This document shows, one piece after another, positions 18,627-39,785 of a stretch of 64,000 nt of DNA. Each line of letters opens with the position of its first letter. The stretch's first letter is position 1. The DNA comes from a virus, in IMG/VR virus record IMGVR_UViG_3300021963_000105, positions 1-64,000 of that record; one strand, 5' to 3'. The position numbers were made by a program, and so were the translations under genes. Below the pieces are notes generated by a model. The model had not been told where the DNA came from, did no database searches, and saw only the letters and a list, made by a program, of their open reading frames with translations.

Positions 18627-19007
18627 TGGTGGAGATGGCGGGATTCGAACCCGCGTCCAGATAAGTTTCTAATGTAAATCGTTCACAAGTTTAGGATAGT
18701 GTTTTATCTTACTAACACTCCAAAAGAATTGGGGCCGAATGGTTAATTCAGCAGATTCCACCAACCGATTTAGAGTTTCGGTAAACTTAAAATGTTCACT
18801 TCTTTTTAATTCCCATGAGTGATACGGGAACGATTAGGCAGCTACTGCGTAATCGAATGAGTTCATCCATGCCATAGCATCTTCGAACGTCATAGTAGAT
18901 AATTCTACGTCTGCACTTATTGTTTGATAGGTCTTCAAAGGTTTCCATCTAACCTTACTTGCATCAATACAACCAGTCTTCATACCTGTCAAAAGCCGGT
19001 CATCCCC
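18627..19007 (-). ncRNA. ssrA: tmRNA (trans-translation RNA)
   Basis: 381 nt with both tRNA-like halves. The 5' end GGGGATG pairs with CATCTCC at the 3' end (one G-U), followed by discriminator A and an encoded CCA. The 5' half continues with ACCGGCTTTTGACAGG, and the 3' half has the T-arm GCGGGTTCGAATCCCGC. A tag reading frame ends at a TAA (18834-18836) with the C-terminal residues NSFDYAVAA, matching the hydrophobic degradation signal of known tags (compare YALAA). The resume codon cannot be fixed by eye; a Gly/Ala/Asp start around 18881 would give about 15 residues. It has its own promoter and terminator. It could rescue stalled ribosomes or retune proteolysis during infection. Confidence 0.95.
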
Positions 19008-27340: not shown

Positions 27341-27391
27341 TAAAAGAAAAAGTTAGGATTTTTGAGTATTATCTCTTAATCCTAACTTTTG
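27341..27391 (-). terminator. Intrinsic terminator after the chaperone extension
   Basis: Arms 27348-27360 and 27378-27390 form a perfect 13-bp stem with a 17-nt loop, followed on the transcript by a U-rich stretch. It overlaps the last codons of the chaperone extension frame (stop at 27369). Confidence 0.85.
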
Positions 27392-27635
27392 ATGGTTTAG
27401 CTGAACTTGATTGCTTATTAGCTTCATTTTCTTTTTCTTTTGCTTCCACTAACTTATTGTAATAGAATCTTCGTAGGTATGTTGGCATTTTGTACAATTC
27501 CATCATACTAAATCCGTTACCATAATTACACATTTCAAATATTTGAGTGTGTAAATTGCTACTATGATTAATTGGAAGGCCAAAAAAAGCTAACACCAAG
27601 TGTAACAGGTGCCTCCTCCACCTCCCCATTCTCAT
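27369..27635 (-). CDS. Tail assembly chaperone extension (T-like), probably made by frameshift
   Basis: The open frame runs 88 codons and overlaps the chaperone gene by 68 nt in another frame. The part inside the overlap (MRMGRWRRHLLHLVLAFF) does not look like a normal protein start. From GLPINHSS onward the sequence is protein-like, with QIFEMCNYGNGF, MMELYKMPTYLRRFYYNKL and a Lys/Glu-rich basic tail. It sits between chaperone and tape measure exactly where lambda T extends G. Expression is more likely by slipping on a T7 run (27582-27588), giving a fusion of about 317 residues, than by its own start. An internal ATG at 27536 is a weaker alternative. Confidence 0.7.
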   Translation of the reverse strand: MRMGRWRRHLLHLVLAFFGLPINHSSNLHTQIFEMCNYGNGFSMMELYKMPTYLRRFYYNKLVEAKEKENEANKQSSSAKPSKVRIKR

Positions 27636-28323
27636 GGGTATATTCCACTTTCATATTTACATCAGGAGTGATTGATTTTACATATTCTCTAAATGCTCTA
27701 CTATCTCTAGCTAACATTCCATTTATATACTTACCAATGTGTGATATATCCGAATTACCATCTACTGCGATAATCATATGTCTTAATCTTGTTGTAATAT
27801 CATAAGAAACATCTTTATTTACTTTTTGTAATGCTTCAATATCTTTATCAATTAATTTTTCATCACCATGCGTAAGTATTTTAAATGTAATTTTATTTTT
27901 ACCAATTGGTGTAATAAATTCAAAACTATTTTTATTGTTAAAAATAGATGTATCAACTTCTTTAATTTTAATTGCTGATAAATCTATATTAGCTTCCACA
28001 ACATCACCAATTACTGATGAATAAAAACTTGATTTATATTCAGGTCCATAACCTAATAATCTTGTTGCTAATAATATTGCGTTCTTATCACCAATTACAA
28101 TATCATCTGGATTTATTTTGTCCACAATAATAGATTCAAATAGTTTATCCAACACAACACCTTTTCTAATAAGGTTTTGAGAAGAAAGAATATCTTCTTC
28201 TTTTGCTGTCATATACTTTATTGTGATTTTTCCAGATGCCAATGGATGGTCTTTTGGATATAATTTACCTTCCGATGGTAAATCTAATACTTCCGTTGGA
28301 AAATCGTATTCTCTTTCTGCCAT
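27568..28323 (-). CDS. Tail assembly chaperone / gp26-like protein
   Basis: 251 aa. MAEREYDFPTEVLDLPSEGK and YPKDHPLASG at the start, YMTAKEEDIL, and LLATRLLGYGPEYKSS resemble the T4-type baseplate-hub/tail chaperone proteins (gp26-like) that act with the tape measure. It lies between tube and tape measure genes. The last codons read through TTT TTT TGG and stop 12 nt later, and a second frame continues past the stop. A TATTTATA motif precedes it by 27 nt, and a terminator separates it from the tube gene, allowing lower expression than tube or sheath. Confidence 0.75.
   Translation of the reverse strand: MAEREYDFPTEVLDLPSEGKLYPKDHPLASGKITIKYMTAKEEDILSSQNLIRKGVVLDKLFESIIVDKINPDDIVIGDKNAILLATRLLGYGPEYKSSFYSSVIGDVVEANIDLSAIKIKEVDTSIFNNKNSFEFITPIGKNKITFKILTHGDEKLIDKDIEALQKVNKDVSYDITTRLRHMIIAVDGNSDISHIGKYINGMLARDSRAFREYVKSITPDVNMKVEYTHENGEVEEAPVTLGVSFFWPSN
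27582..27588 (-). other. Candidate programmed frameshift site (T7 run)
   Basis: Seven consecutive T on the coding strand (AGC TTT TTT TGG in the chaperone frame), 12 nt before the chaperone stop. A +1 or -2 slip enters the T-like extension frame at GGC; a -1 slip reaches an unrelated short frame. Frameshifted G/GT-type chaperone pairs are established in lambda-like and Mu-like phages; Mu uses -2. Confidence 0.6.
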
Positions 28324-32279: not shown

Positions 32280-35200
32280 TTATTGGTTTTCTAAATTTTG
32301 AATTCTTGCTTCCAATTGCTCCAATCTACTTTCTAATGCTGCAACTCTATCTTCTAATGTATCGTGGTATCCTTTTAATTCTTTAATACCCTGAACAGTC
32401 AATCCATGTACACCATTATAGTTAAGAGTTTTGAAGTATCTATTGTATTCACCACCAACCCAGTCTTCATCAACCAATACAGGTAATACTGCTTCAACTT
32501 CTTGCGCTATTAAACCAGCTCCATGTGTTCTTTCCTCAATATCGTTGTTTCTATATGGAGAATCTTCAGTAAATTCATAAGTGTAACCACTAATTTGTGA
32601 TATTTTTTCTAATGCGTTATCAATAACCTGTAAGTTGGTTTTTAAGTCTGCATCAGAGAAACCATTCCACTCCCATTGTGCACCTCTTGTTCTCAAGTGA
32701 CCAGATTCATCCAAATCCATCATTTTGGTGTATCCACAATACCACTCATATTTACGAGCGTTGGAAACAAAACCAGCAGATGTCCAGTCACCATTACCAT
32801 TCACACTTACCTCAAATGTTGCGTTTGCACCATTATCAGAGTTTGAAATACCAAATCCTTCGTATGCGTTCCATCCATTGGAAACACCCATACGATACAT
32901 ATGTGATAAAGGAACAAAGAATGCATCCAAACCAGCAGTTCTTGATACATCACCAGGGTCCACATACCAACTTGTATTTGCTCTATCGTAGATAATGTTA
33001 AGACGAACATCGTTCATCTGCGATACACTATTAGGGTCTAAATAGTATCCAGTATCATCTCTATCGTAGATAAAGTTTGTTCTGATTTCATATAGATACG
33101 TTCTATTACCAGAATAGTGGTTAATATAAGTTTCATATCCATTACGGCAATCCAAGTGTAAGTTACCATTTGTAGTAACAACAGATGCCCAACCATCAGG
33201 TCTACCATTTGAACCAGCCCACATATATGCTCCCCACGATGGATTAGGTCCGTAGAATGTACCACCTCTAATTCTCATTGCTGAATCAGATGTACTATTT
33301 GGGTCCATATAGTATCCCGTATCATCCGAATCGTAGAATCTATTTGCGTAGAATGAACGATTGGTATGTGCATTGTTATCATACATTGCAACTTTGAACC
33401 AACCACTATTGCTACTCCAGCTATGTCTCCACCATAATGAATCGGTTACACCACCCATCATCTGCCATCCGTATCCACTATTGTATCCGTTTACATAGTG
33501 ATATGTTTGAATACCAACCCAGTGAGATGTATCACCAGGGTTGTTTGCACCAGGTCCCCAACTATCAAAGAATCCACTACCCCATGTCATTACGGTATTG
33601 AAGTCCGTAGTACCCCAACCCATTTGTCCTGTCCAATAGTTAGTATCTCCAGTTATATAAGGTCTCCAATAGTTGTATTTGTAAGTAATACCAGTCTTAG
33701 CTTGTGAATCTGAAGTCCATCCGTTAATATTTGTACTTCTATCAGACGCAGGGTCTACTCTATATCCACTATTATTATTATCATAGAATACATTAGCATA
33801 TAATTCGTTTACTTCATATATACCATATCCACTATGGTAATTGTGTCCGTAATGTCTAATTGGTCTATTTGAATAGTAGTTTAGATAGATATCAAGACCA
33901 TTAAGTGCATCTATATGTAAGTTACCAGAAAGATAAATTCTACCATTACCATTGTTTGCATATAAATAATCTACTACATTTATTCTATTAAATACAGATG
34001 TACCATTAGGGTCTGAATAATATCCAGTATTTTGTGCGTCATAAACTATGTTAGCTTGGAAGTTTTGTGCCCATGCCGTACTACCATTATCCCATCTTAA
34101 ATTCCAACCAACCTGTGAAGTAGTAGAACCATATCCCAATCTCCAATCGTTTGCACCATAGTTCCACATCAATCCCCAATAGGTAGATGCGTTGTTCATT
34201 GCAAATCCACCATTGTTATTGTATGCGTTTGATTGGAATGAGTTTCCGTTTGCAGCAATTACATAAGTAAGGTTTGATGTTCCATTAGGGTCACAATAGT
34301 ATCCAGTATTATTATAATCGTAGAATATTGGTGCTCTTGAAGAACCATATCCATATGATATACTACTTGCAATAATATCACCACTAATGTACATACCACC
34401 AGCAAAACCTATACGAGAATAAGTTGAACCATTGTTTCTTAATGCAAGGTGATGGTCGTATCCACTTCCATATTCATAACCAATACCATACATATTACCC
34501 AACGGCCAGCTTTCACCAATTGTCCAAATTACTTTAGATGATGTACCATTAACATTGTAATCACCCATCAAACCACCAGCATTTCTACTTACAAGATAAT
34601 CCGAATACCACATTCTACCCGCAAAGTTTCCTTGGTTAAAGTTTGAATAAGAGTTAGGGTCTACATAATATCCTGTATTATTTGAATCGTAAAATATTGG
34701 TGCTCTAAATGAACTTACTTCGGTAGTATTATCACTATATGTGTATAATCTATCGTTTCCGTTATATTGTGTTCTAACACCAGGGTTTGTACTACCACCA
34801 TCAACAGTAGTTGAGTTAAGAATAATAAAACCACCTCTAATTAAGATAGAATCATCCGCATCATTTTCAGTTCGGATAACTAATCTTGATGTTTCACCAG
34901 ATGAAAGGTTAGTTGCCGTTTCATAGTAGATTTGTGCACCATCCGATGGATAGTTTACACCACTTCTAAAATCAATAGTAGCTCTACCATATGTACTTTC
35001 TGCTAATAATACTAAGTTAGCAGTACCAGAACCATATGAACTTCTACCTGTGGATACATTTGCTGCTAATGTTAATCCACCTAAATTTGATGTACCATTG
35101 GGGTCTAAATAATATCCAGTATTTGAATATTCATAGAATATAGCGGAACGCATTGAACTATCATGGTACATTAAATCACTACCAACTCTATAATATTCGG

Positions 35201-38200
35201 TACTAGCTCTCAATGCTCTATATGCATATGTGTGAGATGATGCCATTTGTGCATCAATACCATAATCAAGGTTACCAGTTATTTGAATAGCCCAGTCATT
35301 ATTATTTGGTTTATTAATCCAAAGAATAGAATCCCCACCAGAAGCTTGATTATCAATACCATCCAAACGAAGTCCACTCATTACAGATGTATTTCTTGGG
35401 TCTACATAATATGCAGTATTATTTCTATCACGGAATGTATCTGCATCTAAATTTCCAACAAACATACCCCCACCACCAAAAGTTGCGTAGTTTGTTTCCA
35501 AACTTAACTCTAATGGCCAATATCCGTTGTAAGTTGCCCAAGATGTACTATCATTACCACTACCTCTTAATACATAAAATATATTAGAGTTATTATGAAT
35601 CATTGCAGAACGATGGTCTGTATCTCTCAAATATATTGTTGGCGATGTATTTCTTAAAAATAAATTACCAGTTGTTGATAAATCGGATGTAATACCTCCA
35701 CTAAATGATACACTACCCTGAAATGTTCTATTACCAGGTACACTTACTTTTATTACTTTCCAACCACTAATGTATGTAGTTCCACCACCGGTATAGTTAA
35801 ATAATGCCTGCGGTGTCCAATATTTTGTTCCACTTCTAAATTGTCCAGTAGATGTACCAAATCCTGAAATATATCCGGTTACTTTAGTCCAAGAAGTACC
35901 AGGGTTGGTATTTGACATTGTCCAATACCCAAACGAACCAGGGTTACCACCTAATGAACTAAATCCTTCATTATAATCAATAGAACCCATATAGTGAGTG
36001 TTTGTACCAGATACGTTTCGTATCCAACACTCCATATAGTAAACATCATTTGTATCTACCGTAATATAAGGGAATCCACTTCCATATACACCGCCAACAT
36101 TTACACTACCAGCTATTGATATTGCATATCCACCAGGGGCAGTTGAATCATTTACCCAACTTACATTACCACTATTAAAGTATGCCTGCAATTGAGTATT
36201 ATTCCAAGTTGGGTCAAATTCAAATACAGTCTCACCAGTTGTGTAATGTCCAATAGGATATCTACTACTATCAACTCTTGATTGGTCTAATGCTAAACTA
36301 CTAAATCTACTATAAGAAGCTGGGTCCAAATAGTATGCGGAGTTAGAATAATCATAATAAGCATTGGCGTATATACCATTTGAGAATATTTGCATTACCT
36401 CTGAACCATTTGTGAATATTCTAAATGATTCATCCGTATTTCTATATCTTATTCTACCAGCATAATCGCCACCATTTGCTTTACTAAAATCAATCCAACT
36501 ACCTTCACCAGTTGATGTGGAAAGGTCAATAAATGCATATGCACCAGCATATACACCAATATTTGCAGATACTGCAGATGGTGTATTTGATGCTTGCCCA
36601 GCACCAGTAAAGTATCCACCTCCACCTAAATAACCATTAGTTGCTGATATTGTACTTGGTGTACTTACTGAAGTTCCAAATGTAAATGTACCATTGTTAT
36701 CACCAGAATTGAAAGCTAAATTACCACCAGTTGCTTTTATATTCCAAGAACGAGTTCCAGATTGGTCAAAACCTAATCTATCACCACTTGTCACCAATAT
36801 ACCAGGATCACCAGTACTATTTATGTTTGAAGAATTTCTGAATATACCATTTGTTGTTAGATTACCAGAAGTATCTAACGTCATTTTTGATGTACCGCTA
36901 CCATTTGTATAAAAATACAAACCATATCCAGTTTCAGCCCATAGACCAGGGTCATAATTTGCATTACCTTCCCACAATCCTCTACGAGTAAATCCACCAA
37001 CATTTGCACTATTTGCAGCATTTCTCAATCTAAATCCACTACTTGCTTGTGCACTATAATATGATGTTGCAGTTACATCACCAGTAACAGTTAATAAACT
37101 ACCATCAAAAGTTAAATTAGCTTCTGCATTTATTGTATTTGCACTAACCGCAGTTAATACTCTATTATCAGCTGGATTGGTGAATGAAGTGATACCTGCG
37201 TTTACACCAGAAGAACCTGATGAACCAGACGAACCACTACTTCCAGATGAACCACTTGTACCAGAAGTACCAGATGTTCCACTAGCGCCAGGTGAACCTG
37301 GTGCACCAGCAGCTCCACTACTTCCACTACTTCCACTACTTCCAGAAGAACCACTTGAACCCGATGTTCCAGAAGTTCCTCTTGTACCAGAAGTACCCGA
37401 TGTTCCACTTGTTCCTGATGTGCCTGATGTGCCTGATGTGCCTGATGTTCCTGATGTGCCACTTGTACCAGAAGTACCCGATGTACCAGAAGTACCCGAT
37501 GTACCGCTTGTACCACCAGTACCAGCAGTTCCCATTGTTCCACTACTTCCAGAAGTTCCACTACTTCCAGAAGTTCCAGAAGTACCAGAAGTACCGCTTG
37601 TACCAGACGTTCCACTACTTCCAGATGAACCAGACGTACCAGATGTACCAGCTGAACCAGATGTTCCAGCTGCGGCTAACCAAGTTGTACCATTATATCG
37701 ATATATGTTGGTATCTGAAGTATTGTAATATATTTGTCCAGCTTTTGTACCAACAGGGTTAGATGAGAATGCTGGAATTGTTATTGAATCTTTAATTTCA
37801 ACCGAACCAGTAAATTCTTGCTTATCATTTGTTGCATCTCCAAATATATTACTACCACTTGCGTAGATTAAAGATGCGGAAATGTATTGTACAAATATTT
37901 GCTGTGCTCTAATTGTACCACCAACAGTTAAATTACCACTAAGGGTTTCATTTCCAGTTACGGTTAAAGTTGTACCATCAAATTTAAGATTTGTTTCAGC
38001 AGTTACGTTTGGTGCAGTTCCATTAAGAGTAATTACACCATTATCAGTTGTACCACTTATCGTTAATGCACCAGAAGTTCCAGAAGTACCAGATGTACCA
38101 GCTGAGCCAGATGAACCAGTTGCACCAGCCGAACCAGATGTTCCAGACGTACCAGAAGTACCAGAAGTACCGCTTGTACCAGAAGTACCCGATGTACCAT

Positions 38201-39785
38201 TTGTACCAGAAGTACCCGATGTTCCGCTTGTACCTGATGTACCAGATGTACCACCACTACCAGCAGTTCCCATTGTACCACTTGTACCAGAAGTTCCGCT
38301 TGTACCAGATGTTCCACTCGTTCCAGAAGTACCAGATGTTCCGCTTGTACCAGATGTTCCGCTTGTACCAGATGTACCACCACTACCTGATGTACCACTT
38401 CCACCACCAGCACCAGTTACACCACTTGAACCAGAAGTTCCAGATGTACCACCACTACCCCCACTACCAGATGTACCAGACGAACCGGTTGTACCACCAC
38501 TACCACTACTTCCAGAAGAACCAGATGAACCCGAAGAACCCGATGAACCACCAGCTCCAGTTATACCACTTGTTCCGCTTGTACCAGAAGTACCACTTGT
38601 ACCAGATGTACCAGAAGTTCCAGAAGTTCCACTTGAACCAGTTGTTCCGGATGAACCTGTTGTACCAGCCGAACCAGTTGTACCAGCAGAACCCGTTGTA
38701 CCAGCAGAACCAGTCGAACCACTACTTCCACTTGTTCCACTTGTTCCAGAAGAACCTCCACTACCAGATGTTCCAGATGAACCAGAAGTACCAGAAGTTC
38801 CGCTTGTTCCAGAAGTACCAGAAGTACCACTTGAACCAGTTGTACCAGCTGAACCTGTTGTACCTGCTGAACCAGACGAGCCAGAAGAACCCGATGTTCC
38901 TCCACTACCACTTGTTCCAGATGTACCAGATGTACCAGAAGTTCCAGATGTACCACCACTACCAGATGTTCCACCACTACCGCTTGTTCCACCACTACCA
39001 GAAGTACCATCCGAACCAGTTGTACCAGATGAACCTGTTGTACCGCTTGAACCAGTTGTACCAGATGTACCACTTGTTCCAGAAGTACCAGAAGATGCAG
39101 CTGCATACTTTCTACCAATTCTACCTGTGGTTGTGTTTAATACCAATACTTCATCGGTAGTAACATCAGTTGCTATTGTATTTCCAGTTACAAATATTGA
39201 ACCACTAATACCAACACTTCCAGTAAATTCGTGTTTATCAACTACATTATCACCAAATTTATTACTTCCACTTGCAAAAATAATAGAAGACGATATATAA
39301 GTTGCTTTTAATTCAGTTGTATTTATTGTACCAGCTACACTTAAATCTCCTCTAAAAATACCACTACCAGTTACAACTAAAAAGTCTTTTACTGTCAATG
39401 ATGTTTGTATTTCTAGCCCTTTGTTTGGTGAGATTATTGCCTGTGCTGAACCTGATTTTAATCTATCAATATCACCAATTGAAGATGCTGGAATATTTGT
39501 TATACCACTACCATCTCCAACAAAAGTATTTGCAACTACAGAAGATGCAGAAACCGATGATGATACTAATAAAGAACCTGTTATTTTTACATTGTTTTGA
39601 ATGGATAATGTTCCCCCATTTGGAGAATTTATCTTTGAAGTTTGAACACCAGATGCCGTAATATCAGTTAAGACATTTACCGATTGGGGTGATACATTTA
39701 TTACAGCCCCACCACTTACATATAGTGATAATAAACTTGCACTTAATTGATTTAAACCATCAGGACTTTTACCGTTGAATACCAT
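32280..39785 (-). CDS. Long tail fibre with collagen-like regions and S74 chaperone
   Basis: 2501 aa. The N-terminus has one copy of the SGSAQAIISPNKG module found many times in the 3268-aa protein. Two Gly-Thr-Ser triplet regions follow (nt 38071-39092 and 37208-37672), separated by a globular module. The C-terminal half carries about ten copies of a motif like YDSNNTGYYVDPN spaced along beta-type domains. The last 126 residues are a peptidase S74 intramolecular chaperone: FSDADLKTNL (Ser2377 at the expected self-cleavage site), GLIAQEVE (about 2424-2431) and a final coiled coil. Trimerisation and autocleavage are expected. It is probably a host-recognition fibre. Confidence 0.9.
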   Translation of the reverse strand: MVFNGKSPDGLNQLSASLLSLYVSGGAVINVSPQSVNVLTDITASGVQTSKINSPNGGTLSIQNNVKITGSLLVSSSVSASSVVANTFVGDGSGITNIPASSIGDIDRLKSGSAQAIISPNKGLEIQTSLTVKDFLVVTGSGIFRGDLSVAGTINTTELKATYISSSIIFASGSNKFGDNVVDKHEFTGSVGISGSIFVTGNTIATDVTTDEVLVLNTTTGRIGRKYAAASSGTSGTSGTSGTTGSSGTTGSSGTTGSDGTSGSGGTSGSGGTSGSGGTSGTSGTSGTSGTSGSGGTSGSSGSSGSAGTTGSAGTTGSSGTSGTSGTSGTSGTSGSSGTSGSGGSSGTSGTSGSSGSTGSAGTTGSAGTTGSAGTTGSSGTTGSSGTSGTSGTSGTSGTSGTSGTSGITGAGGSSGSSGSSGSSGSSGSGGTTGSSGTSGSGGSGGTSGTSGSSGVTGAGGGSGTSGSGGTSGTSGTSGTSGTSGTSGTSGTSGTSGTSGTSGTMGTAGSGGTSGTSGTSGTSGTSGTNGTSGTSGTSGTSGTSGTSGTSGSAGATGSSGSAGTSGTSGTSGALTISGTTDNGVITLNGTAPNVTAETNLKFDGTTLTVTGNETLSGNLTVGGTIRAQQIFVQYISASLIYASGSNIFGDATNDKQEFTGSVEIKDSITIPAFSSNPVGTKAGQIYYNTSDTNIYRYNGTTWLAAAGTSGSAGTSGTSGSSGSSGTSGTSGTSGTSGTSGSSGTSGSSGTMGTAGTGGTSGTSGTSGTSGTSGTSGTSGTSGTSGTSGTSGTSGTSGTSGTRGTSGTSGSSGSSGSSGSSGSSGAAGAPGSPGASGTSGTSGTSGSSGSSGSSGSSGSSGVNAGITSFTNPADNRVLTAVSANTINAEANLTFDGSLLTVTGDVTATSYYSAQASSGFRLRNAANSANVGGFTRRGLWEGNANYDPGLWAETGYGLYFYTNGSGTSKMTLDTSGNLTTNGIFRNSSNINSTGDPGILVTSGDRLGFDQSGTRSWNIKATGGNLAFNSGDNNGTFTFGTSVSTPSTISATNGYLGGGGYFTGAGQASNTPSAVSANIGVYAGAYAFIDLSTSTGEGSWIDFSKANGGDYAGRIRYRNTDESFRIFTNGSEVMQIFSNGIYANAYYDYSNSAYYLDPASYSRFSSLALDQSRVDSSRYPIGHYTTGETVFEFDPTWNNTQLQAYFNSGNVSWVNDSTAPGGYAISIAGSVNVGGVYGSGFPYITVDTNDVYYMECWIRNVSGTNTHYMGSIDYNEGFSSLGGNPGSFGYWTMSNTNPGTSWTKVTGYISGFGTSTGQFRSGTKYWTPQALFNYTGGGTTYISGWKVIKVSVPGNRTFQGSVSFSGGITSDLSTTGNLFLRNTSPTIYLRDTDHRSAMIHNNSNIFYVLRGSGNDSTSWATYNGYWPLELSLETNYATFGGGGMFVGNLDADTFRDRNNTAYYVDPRNTSVMSGLRLDGIDNQASGGDSILWINKPNNNDWAIQITGNLDYGIDAQMASSHTYAYRALRASTEYYRVGSDLMYHDSSMRSAIFYEYSNTGYYLDPNGTSNLGGLTLAANVSTGRSSYGSGTANLVLLAESTYGRATIDFRSGVNYPSDGAQIYYETATNLSSGETSRLVIRTENDADDSILIRGGFIILNSTTVDGGSTNPGVRTQYNGNDRLYTYSDNTTEVSSFRAPIFYDSNNTGYYVDPNSYSNFNQGNFAGRMWYSDYLVSRNAGGLMGDYNVNGTSSKVIWTIGESWPLGNMYGIGYEYGSGYDHHLALRNNGSTYSRIGFAGGMYISGDIIASSISYGYGSSRAPIFYDYNNTGYYCDPNGTSNLTYVIAANGNSFQSNAYNNNGGFAMNNASTYWGLMWNYGANDWRLGYGSTTSQVGWNLRWDNGSTAWAQNFQANIVYDAQNTGYYSDPNGTSVFNRINVVDYLYANNGNGRIYLSGNLHIDALNGLDIYLNYYSNRPIRHYGHNYHSGYGIYEVNELYANVFYDNNNSGYRVDPASDRSTNINGWTSDSQAKTGITYKYNYWRPYITGDTNYWTGQMGWGTTDFNTVMTWGSGFFDSWGPGANNPGDTSHWVGIQTYHYVNGYNSGYGWQMMGGVTDSLWWRHSWSSNSGWFKVAMYDNNAHTNRSFYANRFYDSDDTGYYMDPNSTSDSAMRIRGGTFYGPNPSWGAYMWAGSNGRPDGWASVVTTNGNLHLDCRNGYETYINHYSGNRTYLYEIRTNFIYDRDDTGYYLDPNSVSQMNDVRLNIIYDRANTSWYVDPGDVSRTAGLDAFFVPLSHMYRMGVSNGWNAYEGFGISNSDNGANATFEVSVNGNGDWTSAGFVSNARKYEWYCGYTKMMDLDESGHLRTRGAQWEWNGFSDADLKTNLQVIDNALEKISQISGYTYEFTEDSPYRNNDIEERTHGAGLIAQEVEAVLPVLVDEDWVGGEYNRYFKTLNYNGVHGLTVQGIKELKGYHDTLEDRVAALESRLEQLEARIQNLENQ
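37208..37672 (-). repeat. Collagen-like Gly-Thr-Ser triplet region 2 of the fibre gene
   Basis: Codes for about 150 residues of uninterrupted G-X-Y, mostly GTS and GSS. Unlike most bacterial collagens it has almost no Pro. Synonymous codons vary, so the DNA is periodic but not identical. Confidence 0.9.
38071..39092 (-). repeat. Collagen-like Gly-Thr-Ser triplet region 1 of the fibre gene
   Basis: Codes for about 340 residues of G-X-Y triplets (GTS, GSS, GTT, GAG variants). It presumably forms a long, thin, trimeric shaft. Confidence 0.9.

Follow-up and report, generated by a model that had tools for sequence, protein, structure and literature searches.

Does the tail chaperone gene of this virus encode one protein, or two proteins linked by a programmed frameshift? 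The stretch of DNA analysed here, referred to as the window, comprises 64,000 nt of the virus record IMGVR_UViG_3300021963_000105 (69.3 kb; GC 34.6%). The sheath, tube, chaperone, extension and tape measure genes all lie on the minus strand and are transcribed in that order, so that the chaperone and its extension occupy the position of a G/GT-type pair, between the tail tube and tape measure genes. The features of the locus are as follows.

31323-28987, minus strand: tail sheath protein (PF04984/PF17482, phrog_23)
28933-28436, minus strand: tail tube protein of the gp19 family (PF06841, phrog_4542), immediately 5' of the chaperone
28323-27568, minus strand: gp26-like tail/baseplate-hub chaperone ORF in the zero frame, G-like, 251 aa (PF12322, phrog_150)
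28323-27369, minus strand: predicted GT-like fusion of chaperone and extension, 317 aa, translated with a +1 step
27635-27369, minus strand: ATG-initiated extension ORF, sharing 68 nt with the chaperone ORF
27591-27589, minus strand: codon AGC preceding the T7 run, third base not T
27588-27582, minus strand: putative slip site T7, read TTT TTT T(GG), from the sequence and its homologues
27581-27369, minus strand: T-like C-terminal extension predicted after a +1 slip, 70 aa, GGC CTT CCA ... AAG AGA TAA
27570-27568, minus strand: zero-frame stop TAA, 11 nt past the run
27302-27078, minus strand: 74-aa ORF past the extension and ahead of the tape measure; ten near relatives have a homologue at this position
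27068-24660, minus strand: tail tape measure protein, 802 aa, called by a BLASTP match

The tape measure call rests on a BLASTP hit (E=4e-17) to the protein that is annotated as tape measure in Flavobacterium phage immuto. The 74-aa ORF has no family match; phages phiM12 and HTVC008M carry a small ORF at the corresponding position. Elsewhere in the window, a complete tmRNA gene lies at 18627-19007 on the minus strand (Rfam RF00023, 96.8 bits), its tag as called by ARAGORN being the unusually long ADVELSTMTFEDAMAWMNSFDYAVAA, and no tRNA genes were found in the 64,000 nt. An ORF of 2501 aa at 32280-39785 (minus strand), which contains long GTSGTSG repeats as well as repeats of the NTGYYVDPN type, is probably a tail fibre or adhesin.

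The chaperone frame ends in GTT AGC TTT TTT TGG CCT TCC AAT TAA. Its T7 run is codon-aligned (TTT TTT TGG) and is the sole run of at least six identical bases within 27369-28323; the distance from the run to the stop, first given as 12 nt, is 11 nt. The extension frame is +1 relative to the chaperone, and the 68-nt overlap claimed for the extension ORF and the chaperone frame is borne out by the sequence. A +1 slip would produce the 317-aa fusion, which contains VSFFGLPINHSS and ends in GLPINHSSNLHTQIFEMCNYGNGFSMMELYKMPTYLRRFYYNKLVEAKEKENEANKQSSSAKPSKVRIKR, and a -2 slip would produce the same fusion with one additional Phe (SFFFGLP as compared to SFFGLP). The -1 frame at the window's run meets a stop after 28 codons, short of the conserved extension, and since the third base of AGC is not T, no -1 heptamer is formed there. 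The expectation of a fusion of about 317 residues by +1 or -2 slipping, and not by -1, therefore holds. Taken by itself, the window has ATG codons in the extension frame at 27635 and 27629, neither of which is conserved in homologues. Searches with the extension alone against PHROGs, Pfam and, by tblastn, phages returned nothing significant, the query being too short.

The chaperone of the window matches PF12322 (T4_baseplate; E=1.1e-6, 28.9 bits, above the gathering cut-off of 24.5) and the baseplate hub family phrog_150. An AlphaFold2 model of the chaperone alone has a mean pLDDT of 89.6, and its matches in BFVD include T4-type baseplate hub proteins. A structure search of the PDB with this model gave no significant match; among the PDB matches listed, the highest probability was that of the HK97 tail assembly chaperone 2ob9, a weak match (0.35, E=1.6). 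No sequence match of the chaperone to any solved structure was found.

To place this junction among its relatives, it was compared with those of two near contigs (L002 and L003), 80 IMG/VR loci and phages of named hosts. Far-T4 contigs, LR756508 and named isolates (Flavobacterium immuto, Microcystis Mel-JY01, Rhodothermus RM378, Bacillus SP-15, Listeria LIS04 and Streptococcus SagM-GXN1) make up what we call the +1 group. Once sequences with over 90% identity around the site had been dropped, this group numbered 78 loci, a few of them on contigs that stop inside the extension; these loci are related, and counts of sites are thus not counts of independent events. The extension lies in the +1 frame and departs from the same Phe-Phe (FF/FL) codon pair in 78 of 78 loci, and the slippery sequence is conserved as TTT TTT T in 67, as TTT CTT TGG in six and as five single variants. 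The alignment of homologues that had been proposed as a check therefore confirms both the slip site and the frame relation.

Selection also appears to have acted on the base that precedes the run. The third base of the codon before it is C in 45 loci, G in 27 and A in 6, and it is T in none of the 78, as compared to an expectation of 38.2 based on the codon use of each gene itself (log10P -25.8 if the loci are treated as independent, which they are not). A T at this position would give T TTT TTT, a -1 heptamer, and its absence therefore looks like selection against slipping in the wrong direction. A +1-frame stop lies 2 nt ahead of the site in 17/78 loci and a zero-frame stop lies 12 nt past the second codon of the pair in 48/78, so that stops on either side pin the switch point to a few codons. 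Among near relatives the median dN/dS is 0.16 for the extension and 0.21 for the chaperone, ratios by which both are under purifying selection. Because L002, L003 and dozens more non-redundant loci keep the frame relation and the site, the arrangement of the two frames is, on comparative grounds, more than chance.

In another set of T4-type relatives the frame of the extension is -1, again at the same Phe-Phe: P-SSM2, S-PM2, KVP40, HTVC008M, phiM12, phiW-14, Aeh1 and phage 65, and likewise the jumbo phages Atu_ph07, PA5oct and RAS14. All 37 non-redundant members of this -1 group, a count that leaves out Aeh1 and phage 65, have the heptamer T TTT TTY (TTT TTC in 34, TTT TTT in 3). In 30 of 34 members a GGAGG-like motif occurs upstream, at a distance of at most 18 nt, against a background of 12%, and the downstream 60 nt show more RNA structure than other parts of the gene (mean z -2.66). 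Strong downstream hairpins of unrelated sequence were found in P-SSM2, S-PM2, Atu_ph07 and PA5oct, and no significant downstream structure in HTVC008M, phiW-14 or phage 65. Covariation in the stem of the cyanophage hairpin was considered and rejected, as the sequences are 88% identical and a frequent change from GCTC/GAGT to GCAC/GCGT breaks a pair.

Profile comparison indicates that the two groups share both parts of the fusion. Their chaperone profiles are homologous (E=2.3e-19), their extension profiles alone match each other (hhalign E=1.1e-9, 96.4%), and the profiles of the whole fusions align across the junction (E=1.2e-26); twenty reversed or shuffled extension controls reached at most 11.3, as compared to 52.8, and at most 0.4%. 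A tree of 43 chaperones needs two changes of frame between +1 and -1, its deep order being unsure because of several long branches. The original prediction had set T4 relatives, as phages usually annotated with separate genes, against phages with an established G/GT frameshift. The annotation is as described; the contrast falls away, since most of the relatives examined have the -1 arrangement.

In the records of P-SSM2, S-PM2, KVP40 and phiM12, the annotated start of 'gp51' or of a small ORF lies just past the gp26 stop, and the annotator of KVP40 recorded a resemblance of the small ORF to 40 residues of the gp51 C-terminus. The ATG annotated in P-SSM2 falls inside the predicted hairpin stem, which makes the annotated starts doubtful. 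The huge phage LR756511 (L010), from 3796 onward, has a -1 extension whose ATG overlaps the chaperone stop (TAATGG) and which has extra residues after the FFFP motif; this extension may be a true separate gene.

Which event would join the two frames, and in which direction, was judged against several other explanations. A ribosome slipping by -2 on the T run, in the manner of phage Mu, would leave one extra Phe at the junction; this is compatible with the frames, and at the T7 sites, taken alone, TTT can re-pair with the TTT two bases back. Re-pairing of the P-site tRNA one base 3' is possible at all eight site types, whereas re-pairing in -2 fails at TTC TTT TAC (L051), TTC TTT CGT (L008) and TTT CTA TTC (L007), so that +1 is favoured over -2. 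The downstream RNA structure that is usual for backward slips is, moreover, not seen in the +1 group (z -0.36). A -2 slip is therefore unlikely, and the comparison of sites points to +1 as the most likely direction. No clear stimulator of a +1 slip came to light in this group: upstream of the sites an SD-like motif is present in only 31/76. The codon after the slip pair, a position at which a rare codon or a stop would be slow to decode, is TGG or TAY. T runs can also provoke transcriptional slippage, and an RNA polymerase, rather than a ribosome, slipping on the T7 run would give an identical fusion. However, the runs are six or seven T long at most, and the frame relation is kept in homologues where a C breaks the run (TTTCTTT, TTCTTTT, TTTCTA), which makes this origin of the fusion highly improbable.

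The extension could instead be an independent small protein, translated from its own start or by re-initiation past the chaperone stop. It is so annotated in many T4 relatives, and an ATG lies a few nt past the stop in KVP40 (TAATG), phiW-14 (TGATG) and P-SSM2 (ATG at +5), to which the overlapping TAATGG of LR756511 can be added. Yet phage 65 has no ATG where the extension begins and HTVC008M has none until 53 nt on. In the +1 group, the stretch of the +1 frame from the upstream stop to 45 nt past the slip contains no ATG, GTG or TTG in 25/78 loci and no ATG in 60/78. The conserved part of the extension opens at the slip site and not at a Met, and a separate protein would leave unexplained why the wobble base ahead of the run is under selection. 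Homologues that lacked the slippery run and kept a conserved start of their own for the extension, named in the original prediction as the finding that would speak against it, did not emerge, and we give very little credence to independent translation. A homopolymer within a metagenome-derived contig might likewise suggest a pseudogene, or an error made in sequencing or assembly. The homologues refute this reading, as the arrangement recurs in several isolate genomes and in dozens of contigs obtained from different samples, and the purifying selection on chaperone and extension speaks against a pseudogene; its probability is negligible. Taken together, these sequence comparisons make it highly probable that a programmed frameshift yields the chaperone and the chaperone-extension fusion from one gene.

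We propose that a single mRNA would give rise to two chaperones. Most ribosomes would stop at TAA and release the 251-aa gp26-like, G-like protein. In a minority, the Phe tRNA on UUU in UUU UUU U would slip one base forward and re-pair with the overlapping UUU, and these ribosomes would read on in the +1 frame to make the 317-aa, GT-like fusion with its 70-aa basic C-terminal tail. By analogy with lambda G/GT, abundant short copies may coat the tape measure, and few long copies may recruit tail-tube or hub proteins. We infer the slipping itself, its efficiency, its direction (+1 rather than -2) and the roles of both proteins from sequence, the G/GT-like roles specifically from the order of the genes, their architecture and their homology with the T4 hub chaperones.

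The relation to T4 bears directly on this proposal. G-T frameshifting is described as widely conserved 'except T4' (Atkins et al. 2016, PMC5009743), and gp26 and gp51 are known as hub assembly chaperones, gp51 being of unknown function (Leiman et al. 2010, PMC3004832). Both T4 proteins match PF12322 and phrog_150, gp26 covering positions 14-235 and gp51 positions 13-280 of a profile of 282. The fusion profile of the -1 group aligns with gp51 over 232 columns, extension included (96.4%), and with gp26 to its penultimate residue (98.8%), and the extension profile alone matches the C-terminus of gp51 (16.3 bits, best domain) and not gp26. A direct match of the +1 extension to T4 gp51 was not significant (hhalign 0.3%), and the two are linked only via the -1 group, which matches both. 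T4 gp26 has no slippery site, its 3' end reading GAG TTC TTT GAG TTA CTA TAA.

Phages 44RR and 133, like T4, have both paralogues, gp26 as the chaperone alone and gp51 as chaperone plus extension, whereas Aeh1 and phage 65 have one chaperone and an out-of-frame extension. Duplication therefore seems, from this distribution, to have taken over from frameshifting within Straboviridae. We consider it likely that a G/GT system is ancestral in T4-type phages, that its direction was switched at one Phe-Phe codon pair by wobble bases, between -1 (T TTT TTY) and +1 (TTT TTT T after a base other than T), and that T4 duplicated the gene, with gp26 corresponding to G and gp51 to GT. In the open-access literature, subscription papers being outside the scope of the search, we found no proposal of gp26/gp51 as a G/GT pair or of a frameshift in this family. 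If true, the proposal would explain the 'except T4' as a case in which relatives of T4 frameshift and T4 has split the products into gp26 and gp51, and it would make the roles of gp26 and gp51 testable by classical T4 genetics. In the genomes examined, the extension is recorded as a gene of its own, 'gp51' or hypothetical, with a start codon that is probably wrong.

Several known systems can be set beside the window. Lambda G/GT shares with it the order of tube, chaperone, extension and tape measure, a short and a long product from one gene, and an extension without its own start; lambda shifts -1, whereas the window group is +1 throughout and the window's chaperone belongs to PF12322. T4 gp26/gp51 has a homologous chaperone family, and the C-terminal extension of gp51 is homologous to that of the -1 group; unlike the window, T4 has two genes and no frameshift. 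Closer in layout are the gp26/gp51 systems of the cyanophages, KVP40, Aeh1, phage 65 and HTVC008M (phrog_634), with homologous chaperone and extension and the same Phe-Phe; they differ in the -1 frame behind T TTT TTY, often with a downstream hairpin, and in being annotated as separate genes. The +1 shift of prfB (RF2) at CUU U resembles the proposed slip of the window group in that a tRNA on YUU in the P site shifts to an overlapping UUU, and its CTT T is exactly present in six loci of the +1 group; the codon that follows in the window group is TGG or TAY rather than a stop, and there is no clear Shine-Dalgarno sequence close upstream. A tail gene of the haloarchaeal myovirus HSTV-2 very likely uses a +1 frameshift (PMC5009743); this archaeal case, which we know from the literature only, is likely a +1 version of G/GT like the window's. 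If the proposal is right, the same two codons form a natural series across the T4-type phages, tuned for -1, for +1 or for no slip, from which one could learn what sets the direction of a frameshift.
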